Of a stretch of DNA of 35,938 bases, positions 8,760-12,317 are shown in pieces. How positions within the stretch are numbered: position 1 is the stretch's first letter; each line of letters begins with the position of its first letter. The position numbers and the translations under genes were made by a program. Below the pieces are notes generated by a model, which saw only the letters and a list, made by a program, of their open reading frames with translations, did no database searches and was not told where the DNA came from. The stretch covers positions 1 to 35,938 of the IMG/VR virus record IMGVR_UViG_3300046777_002572; one strand, written 5' to 3'. The DNA comes from a virus.

Positions 8760-9569
8760 ATGGCCTTCGAGCAAACGACATCTGATATATTGATGAATGA
8801 TGCCAGAGAAATTTTTGGTAAATTGGCAACAACAAATCAATATCAGGTGTTTCTCGGACCTTTTAATGGTAAGTTCATTGCAGAAATGTCTCAATGGGGT
8901 GGTCAAGGTCTTAGAGAAAGTAGGATATACGCAGGTAATAAACTAGGATTACTTTGTACTGATGCATCAATTCCAGCATCAACTTATGCAACAGCCGAAG
9001 TGAAGGATAATTATATGGGTATTCCACAAGAGTTTGCTCATACAAGATTGTATACTGACATCGACTTCACTTTTTATATTGATAAAGAATATCATCTTTT
9101 GAGTTTTTTTGAATTTTGGATGAACTATGTTGGAGGAGCATCTGAGTTGGCTGCTTCTTCTTCAATTTCTCATAACGTTTATAGAAGATTTGCATGGCCA
9201 GATGACTATAAAACCGATAATGTTTTTATTCAAAAATTTGAAAGAGATTATAACAGACCAAGATCTAGAAAAATACAATATCAGTTGATTAATGCCTTTC
9301 CAAAATCAGTTACTTCTATTCCAATTTCTTATGGTCCCGCAGATCTATTGAAGATAACTGTCACAATGAATTATGATAGATATTTGGTTACGAGTTGGAT
9401 AAATCCAGTGGATGAGAGTTCTAATAATTCTCAAACTCAACAACCTCCAGCGACTTCTTCGGGAACACAAGCAGTAAAAAATAAACCAATTTCTCCTACT
9501 CTTCGTCGCCAAAATCCAGCTCTTACAGAGAAGCAACTTCAGGATTTAGCGAACACCGGATTGAGGTAA
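8760..9569 (+). CDS. 54: gp54 baseplate tail tube initiator
   Basis: gp54 binds gp48 on the hub and provides the first ring for the tail tube (a gp19-like fold). The sequence has a tube-family pattern: 'LLCTDASIPASTYATAEV' near residues 65-80, then 'IPQEFAHTRLYTDIDFTFYID', and a late 'YGPADLLKITVTMNYDRYLV' segment before a Gln/Ser/Thr-rich flexible tail. The length is 269 aa (T4: 320). Its position beside gp4 and upstream of gp26 fits a rearranged T4 baseplate operon. The assignment to gp54 rather than another tube-like protein is by context and pattern. Confidence 0.8.
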   Translation: MAFEQTTSDILMNDAREIFGKLATTNQYQVFLGPFNGKFIAEMSQWGGQGLRESRIYAGNKLGLLCTDASIPASTYATAEVKDNYMGIPQEFAHTRLYTDIDFTFYIDKEYHLLSFFEFWMNYVGGASELAASSSISHNVYRRFAWPDDYKTDNVFIQKFERDYNRPRSRKIQYQLINAFPKSVTSIPISYGPADLLKITVTMNYDRYLVTSWINPVDESSNNSQTQQPPATSSGTQAVKNKPISPTLRRQNPALTEKQLQDLANTGLR

Positions 9570-9602: not shown

Positions 9603-10325
9603 ATGCCTTTACCAAAAATTAATACTCCAACATATGAGTTGGAATTGCCTTCTACTGGGAAAAAAATTAGATATCGTCCTTTCCTAGTAAGAGAAGAAAA
9701 AATTCTTTTAATTGCTCTTGAATCTGAGGATACAAAGCAAATTTCAGGTGCAATTGTTCAAATTTTATCAGATTGTATTTTAACTAAAACTGTAAAAGTA
9801 TCTGAACTTTCAACATTTGACATTGAATATCTGTTCCTCAATGTTCGTGCCAAATCAGTCGGTGAAACTGTTGAGGTAAATGTAACTTGTCCTGATGATA
9901 ATGAGACAAGAGTTAAAATGGAAATTGCCATTGATGATATTAAAGTTCAAAAAGATCCTGCACATACTAATACTATTAAATTAGATGAGAATCTTTCTAT
10001 GAAACTTCGATATCCTTCTCTTGAACAATTTGTTGAAAATAATTTTGAAGTCAACGAAGAAAACACAGATGTAGATAAGTCACTTTCTTTAATTATTTCT
10101 TGTATTGATACAGTTTATGATCAAGAAGAATCTTGGAGTGCTGCTGATTGTTCAAAGAAAGAACTAGAGGAATTTGTGGAGCAAATGAATACGAAGCAGT
10201 TTAAGGAAATTGAAAATTTCTTTACAACAATGCCTAAACTTTCTCATACAATCAAAGTTAAAAATCCAAATACAAAGGTTGAAAGTGATGTTGTTTTGGA
10301 GGGTCTAGCAAGTTTTTTCATCTAG
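9603..10325 (+). CDS. 26: gp26 baseplate hub protein / tail assembly chaperone-like
   Basis: The protein belongs to the T4 baseplate family (PF12322-like): an N-terminal beta region 'TYELELPSTGKKIRYRPF', then 'YLFLNVRAKSVGETVEVNVTCPDD', then an acidic helical C-terminus. T4 gp26 (208 aa) is an assembly protein of the central hub; here 240 aa. The last codons are GCA AGT TTT TTC ATC TAG, which contain a T TTT TTC slippery heptamer six bases before the stop. The following small ORF lies in the -1 frame with no stop between, so a minor gp26-gp51 fusion is possible. Confidence 0.88.
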   Translation: MPLPKINTPTYELELPSTGKKIRYRPFLVREEKILLIALESEDTKQISGAIVQILSDCILTKTVKVSELSTFDIEYLFLNVRAKSVGETVEVNVTCPDDNETRVKMEIAIDDIKVQKDPAHTNTIKLDENLSMKLRYPSLEQFVENNFEVNEENTDVDKSLSLIISCIDTVYDQEESWSAADCSKKELEEFVEQMNTKQFKEIENFFTTMPKLSHTIKVKNPNTKVESDVVLEGLASFFI

Positions 10326-10338
10326 GTATGGCTCATAC
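10313..10338 (+). other. Candidate programmed -1 ribosomal frameshift site
   Basis: The heptamer T TTT TTC (10313-10319) fits X XXY YYZ in the gp26 reading frame. After a -1 slip the ribosome reads CAT CTA GGT ATG, entering the gp51-like frame with no stop. Six bases downstream a small hairpin GTATG-GCT-CATAC (326-338) could act as stimulator. The organisation matches the G/GT frameshift in tail assembly chaperone genes just upstream of the tape measure gene. Confidence 0.6.
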
Positions 10339-10507
10339 TAGCCTTGAGTCATACTACGAGATTAATTTTGCCCTCATGCAGCACCATAAATATTCATTGA
10401 CAGAGATTGAAAATATGATGCCTTGGGAACGTGAAATTTACATTGGTCTGCTTCAAAATTATATCGAAGAAGAAAACTTAAAGGCACAGCAATCTAGTGG
10501 CATTTAA
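10328..10507 (+). CDS. gp51-like small hub assembly protein (59 aa), possibly made as gp26 fusion
   Basis: This 59-codon frame holds a compact helical protein: YSLTEIENMMPWEREIYIGL followed by an acidic Glu-rich tail. The 'W-E-R-E-x-Y' pattern resembles the C-terminal (T) part of tail assembly chaperones. By position, after gp26 and before the tape-measure-like genes, it corresponds to T4 gene 51, although it is much shorter. The ATG at 10328 has no good Shine-Dalgarno sequence and is only two bases after the gp26 stop, so it is expressed either by coupling or by -1 frameshifting from gp26. Its end overlaps the next gene by 11 bases. Confidence 0.7.
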   Translation: MAHTSLESYYEINFALMQHHKYSLTEIENMMPWEREIYIGLLQNYIEEENLKAQQSSGI

Positions 10508-12317
10508 CGATCAAATCTATAGAGCACCATCATTACCAAAGATGAACCGAAGAAATATTTCTTCTTCGGTAATGAGTGGTGCGGAGATTGCATCTACTCC
10601 TAGATTAAAAAGATCTACGTTTAGCTTTCTTGGTGGAGAGAGGCGTGGTGGGGTAGGATCTAACTTAAAAATGGAAGGTGCAAGTGTAGATATTCAGTTG
10701 CAAGAAACAAATAGAATTCTGGTAGAAATACAAAAACAATTATCTCTTGATTTTGCAAATAGAATTGTTGAAAAAAGACAAGCAATTCGAGCATCAAAAA
10801 CTAAGTTATATGCCGAAAGAGCAGGGGCAAAAGAGAAAGCTGTTGAATCTGTAAGAAGTTTTGGGTCGGGAATTTTAAAGACATTTGATGTTATTGCTGC
10901 TCCAGCAAAAAGCATCTTTCAAAAAATATTAGATTTTTTTAGTATTATTGTAAGTGGATTGCTTATCAATAATGCTTTTAGGTGGTTAGAAAATCCTGCA
11001 AACAGACAAAAAATTGATAAATTCTTTAAATTTGTTGCAAAACATTGGAAAGAACTACTTGCACTTTATGGTGCATATAAAGTATTAAAGATTGTTGGTG
11101 CTTTAAAGAGAATAGCAGATCTCTTTAAACGTCCACCAAGATGGCCAAGAGGGGGTGGTGGAGGAGGTGGACCACAAAAACCTGGTCCTAAAGGTCCTCA
11201 ACCAAATGATCCTTGTGCGGGAGTTTTAAAGTGTGGAGGATCAATATTAAAGGTTATTAAAGATAATGCATCTGCGATTGCCCTTATCCTTGCAAGTTTC
11301 CTTGGAGAGTATTTTTTACCTAAAGGGAAGCCTACCCTTGCCAAACCAACAGGATTAAAACCTGGTGAATTGGATACTGCAAAAGGAACTTCTAGATCTG
11401 CGGTAAATGCAGCTTTAATGAGTGCAAGACCTGATTTATTTGGTCCTGATGCTGGCATGACACCAGAAGAGAAATTATTTGATAAGATGAATTTACCTCG
11501 TTGGTTGGCACCAGTTGTAGAAAGCTTAGTAAGTGCTGCTATGATGCGAAGGGGTATGATGAGAACTTCATTCCTTCGTGGAAATCCAAATCAATATCCA
11601 GGGGGAATAGGTCCTTTTCAACCACCAACAAATAGAACTAGACCAACAAAAAAAGGTAATACAAGATTATCTTCATTTTCCATAAGAGATATTCTGGGTC
11701 GTGCTTCACAACCTGGTGGATTTGAGATAACAAATATTCAAGGAAAATCTTTAGGTGGAACGGTAGGTGGAACTGGATCTGGAACTGTTGATAGTGTTCC
11801 AGCAATGCTTGCGCCTGGTGAGGAAGTTATTCGTGCATCAGCAGCAATGCTGTTTAGACCACTTCTTAAAGACATTAATAATAATGCTGGTAGAATGTGG
11901 AATACATTTACTTCTGCCGTATCGAATTTGATTACATCAAATTCTGATATGAGATCTTCATTAACAATTCTTGCATCTCAATTGTCAGATTTTAAAAAAC
12001 AATTGGATCAATTTGTTAATGATGAAAAGATTAAAAAAACCAAAAATATTAAAAATGGTAGTATTGAAAATCACAGAACAAGTAGACCAGTTTCTCCTGA
12101 ACTTGTCTTACATTCAGATATTAAGAATCCACCAAAAAGAAGTGCAAAATCAGCATTTATTCCAATAAATCTTCCTACTCAGTCTTTACCTCCTTCCGGT
12201 ATACCAAAATATGATTCTGCCGGAGAAACGATGACAGAAGCACCAGAAATTTCTAGTATTAATATTGCAAATCCATATATGAAAATCGTACCAGAAATGT
12301 TAGGGATTTTTGTATAA
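10497..12317 (+). CDS. Large tail structural protein, tape-measure-like (606 aa)
   Basis: The protein has an N-terminal coiled-coil region (about residues 65-125), a hydrophobic stretch containing GLLINN (154-159) and further amphipathic helices to about 205, a Gly/Pro-rich linker, then a central-to-late segment DSVPAMLAPGEEVIRAS (432-448) that is a familiar motif of phage tape measure proteins. It starts with a GTG overlapping the gp51-like ORF by 11 bases. Its position after gp26-gp51 is that of T4 27-28-29. Residues about 100-160 are paralogous to the N-terminus of the next protein. A tape measure role is inferred from motif and place; other hub roles are possible. Confidence 0.7.
   Translation: MAFNDQIYRAPSLPKMNRRNISSSVMSGAEIASTPRLKRSTFSFLGGERRGGVGSNLKMEGASVDIQLQETNRILVEIQKQLSLDFANRIVEKRQAIRASKTKLYAERAGAKEKAVESVRSFGSGILKTFDVIAAPAKSIFQKILDFFSIIVSGLLINNAFRWLENPANRQKIDKFFKFVAKHWKELLALYGAYKVLKIVGALKRIADLFKRPPRWPRGGGGGGGPQKPGPKGPQPNDPCAGVLKCGGSILKVIKDNASAIALILASFLGEYFLPKGKPTLAKPTGLKPGELDTAKGTSRSAVNAALMSARPDLFGPDAGMTPEEKLFDKMNLPRWLAPVVESLVSAAMMRRGMMRTSFLRGNPNQYPGGIGPFQPPTNRTRPTKKGNTRLSSFSIRDILGRASQPGGFEITNIQGKSLGGTVGGTGSGTVDSVPAMLAPGEEVIRASAAMLFRPLLKDINNNAGRMWNTFTSAVSNLITSNSDMRSSLTILASQLSDFKKQLDQFVNDEKIKKTKNIKNGSIENHRTSRPVSPELVLHSDIKNPPKRSAKSAFIPINLPTQSLPPSGIPKYDSAGETMTEAPEISSINIANPYMKIVPEMLGIFV

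Follow-up and report, generated by a model that had tools for sequence, protein, structure and literature searches.

A probable programmed -1 frameshift joining gp26 to gp51 in a cyanomyovirus and its relatives

Public cyanophage and T4-like records list gp26 together with a separate "gp51 hub assembly catalyst". We asked whether gp51 is a gene of its own or the C-terminal part of a protein made by ribosomal frameshifting at the end of gp26. The locus was examined in a virus record of 35,938 bases, analysed over its whole length and called the window here, whose nearest named relatives are Kyanoviridae (T4-like cyanophages). A tail tube-like gene lies on the 5' side of gp26 and a tape-measure-like ORF on its 3' side, which is the order expected of a tail assembly chaperone (TAC) pair (Table 1). 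The G/GT-like layout that a preliminary description had seen here is present, with the tape-measure-like ORF directly downstream, where it overlaps gp51 by 11 nt. A terminator-like hairpin on the minus strand at 10546-10570, inside the tape measure gene, is probably a chance occurrence.

Table 1. Positions of genes and putative signal elements around the gp26-gp51 junction in the window.
Feature	Position	Strand	Evidence
Tail tube-like gene (Phage_TTP_2), upstream of gp26	8760..9569	+	Pfam PF23849 4.4e-19; phrog_45 tail tube 3.8e-30
gp26, short tail assembly chaperone by homology (TAC-N), 240 aa	9603..10325	+	PF12322 1.4e-74; phrog_150 3e-82
SD-like GGAGGG, putative 5' stimulator, 9 nt before heptamer	10298..10303	+	
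Slippery heptamer T TTT TTC	10313..10319	+	in-register T TTT TTN in 148/154 non-redundant relatives
Zero-frame stop TAG of gp26	10323..10325	+	read from sequence
11-bp stem with 9-nt loop, putative 3' stimulator, burying ATG 10328	10325..10355	+	
gp51 domain (TAC-C), -1 frame, 62 codons + stop	10319..10507	+	phrog_634 3e-28; aligns with T4 gp51 C-terminus
Candidate tape measure protein, 606 aa	10497..12317	+	PHROG tape-measure motif 3e-7, residues 414-465; position

The 3' codons of gp26 read GCA AGT TTT TTC ATC TAG. Direct reading bears out the preliminary description in two respects: T TTT TTC is in exact X XXY YYZ register near the end of gp26, and the downstream ORF is in the -1 frame and open back through the slip site. 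The distance of six bases before TAG given there holds for the start of the YYZ codon; the heptamer itself ends 3 bases before TAG, leaving one sense codon (ATC). In the -1 frame the junction reads TTT TTT CAT CTA GGT ATG GCT, and this frame is open for 11 codons upstream of the gp26 stop. A -1 shift would read base 10319 twice and end at the stop at 10505-10507. The predicted fusion has 239 + 62 = 301 aa, instead of the roughly 304 aa first estimated. Its predicted junction is ...LASFF followed by HLGMAHTSLESYYE..., and the tryptic peptides predicted across this junction are ...DVVLEGLASFFHLGMAHTSLESYYEINF...

The window's gp26 is homologous to T4 gp26 over nearly its full length. The gp51 domain, which had no match in a Pfam search, also matches the C-terminal end of the phrog_150 profile of the gp26 family (positions 239-278 of 282), so some phrog_150 members contain both parts. 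A profile built from the virtual fusion aligns end to end with T4 gp51 (probability 97%, E 4e-11). The viral protein A0A8S0HX62 matches the gp26 and gp51 models with 52% and 64% identity and looks like a deposited gp26-gp51 fusion. For the gp26 model (pLDDT 87), the top two Foldseek hits among 350,542 PDB chains are both to 2ob9, the tail assembly chaperone of HK97; these matches are not significant (E 1.2, probability 0.30-0.47) and give a hint only that gp26 may resemble the HK97 chaperone (gp13-like TAC) fold. Searching PDB sequences with the gp26 profile returned no credible match. The gp51 domain is modelled as a small helical domain (pLDDT 78).

Conservation of the heptamer and of the -1 phase was found across Kyanoviridae and beyond. 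A first scan gave 79 complete IMG/VR loci in addition to the window; in all 79, and in the window, a single codon separates TTTTTTC from the gp26 stop, and a gp51 homologue follows in the -1 phase. Further scans and annotated phages brought the set to 275 loci, of which four are truncated by the end of a contig; a scan with a Desulfovibrio phage gp26 gave no additional ones. Every one of the 275 has an uninterrupted -1 frame through the junction, and 254 have an in-register T TTT TTN (TTC 201, TTA 29, TTT 23, TTG 1). The other 21, which lack the heptamer, all belong to Ackermannviridae or to Vibrio phage D494. When the loci were clustered at 85% nucleotide identity, 154 non-redundant ones remained, 148 with the in-register heptamer, and the Z base is C in 127 of these 148.

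Such a heptamer is rare outside the junction. Of the 33,591 codon positions away from the junction in gp26 relatives, 15 carry T TTT TTN in register. The spelling T TTT TTY is used for 3 of the 156 Phe-Phe dipeptides elsewhere in gp26, compared to 138 of the 148 junctions; the remaining 10 junctions encode Phe-Leu, as T TTT TTR. The preceding codon is AGT, TCT, AAT, GAT, GCT, GGT or CGT (S, N, D, A, G, R), always T-ending, and it changed at least 34 times on the gp26 tree among heptamer-carrying rows. Log10 probabilities of -27 and -20 assume independent relatives and are not p-values, and change counts on the tree are used instead.

In Ackermannviridae and Vibrio phage D494, the gp26 homologue is directly followed by an ORF in the -1 frame, about 50 codons long. 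This ORF is open across the junction and gp51-like (MPWHLD...), and it is unannotated in Maynard and K5lambda5. The sole slip candidate at these junctions is a T TTC tetramer (ATT TTC or CTT TTC). In a Melnitz-3-like clade, the zero-frame stop comes immediately 3' of T TTT TTT, and many members have a -1-frame stop immediately 5' of it; these flanking stops would confine a slip to two codons.

The annotated alternative is that gp51 is made separately, by termination-reinitiation or by fresh initiation at the ATG at 10328, 2 nt after the gp26 stop. This codon is an ATG in 62 non-redundant relatives, the window counted, and public records are annotated accordingly; that of P-SSM2, for example, has gp51 as a separate gene from its ATG. 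However, independent ribosome entry at 10328 is not conserved: 71 of the 148 non-redundant relatives have no ATG, GTG or TTG in the first seven -1 codons, and start-codon presence changed at least 13 times on the gp26 tree. The first ATG in these startless relatives is usually codon 19, inside the gp51 domain, yet codons 3-14 have a pN/pS of 0.38 in the -1 frame, compared to 1.24 and 1.12 in the other frames. Since purifying selection is seen in the -1 frame only, this startless stretch is translated, and frameshifting is the simplest route into it. A separate gp51 also leaves the conservation of the heptamer without explanation and puts its ATG within the 11-bp stem. The lack of a Shine-Dalgarno (SD) sequence at ATG 10328, which the preliminary description had raised, is real and holds in all 62 relatives having that ATG; it is weak evidence, uninformative taken alone, because just 8 of 62 gp26 starts in relatives have an SD core. 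We regard a wholly separate gp51 as very improbable.

Both routes could operate together, the frameshift making the fusion and ATG-keeping lineages also making some free gp51 by reinitiation. The window does belong to a large clade that has kept the ATG, but a conserved Met and the stem sequence can explain the conservation of this codon, and there is no sign of a ribosome entry site; we consider this combination unlikely. RNA polymerase slippage on the T run, adding or dropping bases so that standard translation then gives the fusion, is the least probable of the explanations weighed. The run is a homopolymer and reaches eight T in the Melnitz-3-like clade, but in the window, as in most relatives, it is just six T long, compared to the runs of nine A or T given for bacterial slippage (PMC5009743). 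The predominance of C as the Z base also counts against polymerase slippage. The way the run is set in the reading frame, and the elements on either side of it, fit slippage by the ribosome instead. The conserved product at the junction is, on this comparison, most likely the fusion and not a separate gp51. None of the 15 annotated junction records has a joined CDS. gp51 is annotated with a late internal start in Syn1 and S-RIM2 and is missing in ACG-2014b and Aswh_1, and these truncated or missing annotations are probably artefacts of the frameshift.

Criteria for -1 signals in E. coli place an SD-like element 6-17 nt upstream of the slip site and the start of a hairpin 4-10 nt downstream (PMC4066793). 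The window agrees with both spacings, as its GGAGGG ends 9 nt upstream of the heptamer and its stem follows a 5-nt spacer. GAGGG is found just upstream of the heptamer in 60% of the 148 relatives, compared to 0.6% of control windows. Glu is encoded by GAG in 89 of 109 cases at the SD-like element, compared to 24 of 99 for other Glu-Gly dipeptides of gp26. Pairing with the anti-SD has a predicted energy of -6.15 kcal/mol, compared to -3.74 after synonymous recoding, and it is stronger than the recoded median in 128 of 148 relatives. Judged by a broad motif, the SD-like element is missing in 29 of 146 relatives.

The downstream stem of the window, GGTATGGCTCA/TGAGTCATACT, pairs 10325-10335 with 10345-10355. 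Its predicted fold is -15.7 kcal/mol (45 nt), with a z of -4.6 against synonymous recoding. Because clades A and B were chosen for having a stem, the fair figure is the count across all 148 relatives, in 98 of which the downstream structure is stronger than synonymous recoding at p<0.05. In the window's clade (25 relatives), 96% of pair cells are standard, compared to 27-39% when slid, and a second clade has a stem of different sequence at nearly the same place. The structure is weak in the T TTT TTT (Melnitz-3-like) clade. Covariation is thin, with two double changes, both in one sequence, so support for the stem rests mainly on synonymous constraint. An Rfam search found nothing relevant. 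The 5-bp hairpin GTATG-GCT-CATAC, proposed earlier as the structure downstream of the heptamer, is present in the window but is an unlikely stimulator; it is kept in only 29 of 148 relatives and is outcompeted by the stronger 11-bp stem, with which it is mutually exclusive. The 11-bp stem-loop is the credible stimulator.

Taken together, we put at roughly 93% the probability that a programmed -1 frameshift yields two tail assembly chaperones from one start. The frameshift proposed in the preliminary description, fusing gp26 to the gp51 domain, is supported by the conserved register and phase and by selection on the startless -1 sequence. Register, phase, conservation, this selection and the presence of both flanking elements are established in the sequence, and from them we infer that the shift occurs, at what rate, and that the flanking elements stimulate it. 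Most ribosomes would stop at the TAG and release gp26. A minority, slowed both by the stem-loop and by base pairs between GGAGGG and the tail of the 16S rRNA, would allow two tRNA-Phe to re-pair from TTT TTC to TTT TTT and would continue in the gp51 frame, giving the 301-aa TAC-NC. Homology to T4 and analogy to lambda suggest that the products act as chaperones. By analogy with lambda gpG/gpGT, both forms would bind the product of the following gene, the tape measure protein; the C-terminal domain would recruit tail tube subunits, and neither form would stay in the virion.

The abstract of Vladimirov, Gautam & Davidson 2022 (Virology 566:9-15) reportedly deals with T4 genes 26 and 51 and with frameshifting in several T4-like groups. 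In passages that refer to it, this study is cited for T4-like phages in which a short gene is accompanied by a long, fused one (PMC10885494) and for poly-T signals of frameshifting in T4-like TAC-N genes (PMC12846349). As represented there, the proposal concerns the same protein family and the same pair of short and long chaperones as in the window, with T4 itself using two genes. The mechanism is therefore known in kind. The present analysis adds figures for all three parts of the signal, and evidence against a start of its own for gp51.

Lambda slips at G GGA AAG, compared to T TTT TTC in the window, and no sequence homology between lambda gpG/gpGT and the window's proteins was shown. As in the window, the lambda -1 frameshift lies near the end of the chaperone gene and directly before the tape measure gene, and its product gpGT is the rarer, C-terminally extended form (PMC5009743). 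The TAC locus of phage Adele (Vandenendeviridae/Andersonviridae) resembles the window in having a -1 frame open in all genomes, a conserved poly-T motif (GTTTTT) and a misannotated downstream frame (PMC12846349), but it belongs to other phage families and its motif is different. E. coli dnaX likewise has a 5' SD-like element and a 3' stem-loop around its heptamer (PMC5009743). In contrast to the window, dnaX has A AAA AAG as its slip site, the efficiency is about 50%, and the product of the shift is the shorter one.

T4 was still named as the exception to G-T frameshifting in a 2016 review (PMC5009743). T4 gp26 (208 aa, minus strand) and gp51 (249 aa, plus strand) both match PF12322 over its length, and the T4 record has two PF12322 genes, compared to one in each of 19 other records. 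The slip run is absent from both T4 genes; gp26 ends GAG TTC TTT GAG, and the gp51 junction is GTG TTT AAG. With two PF12322 genes and the slip run in neither, T4 has one gene for each of the two products that appear, in the window, to come from a single gene. By this homology, T4 encodes both products as separate paralogues, gp26 being the short form and gp51 the long one.

The three-part signal makes the frameshift directly testable, and the contrast with T4, where the two paralogous genes are on opposite strands, shows how T4 gp26 and gp51 relate to one frameshifted gene elsewhere. We tentatively suggest, at a little under even odds, that in cyanomyoviruses a complete dnaX-type signal (SD-like element, T TTT TTC and clade-specific stem-loop) sets the chaperone ratio and was kept while the gp51 start came and went, with T4-type phages having moved to two paralogous genes and Ackermannviridae perhaps slipping at a bare T TTC tetramer.
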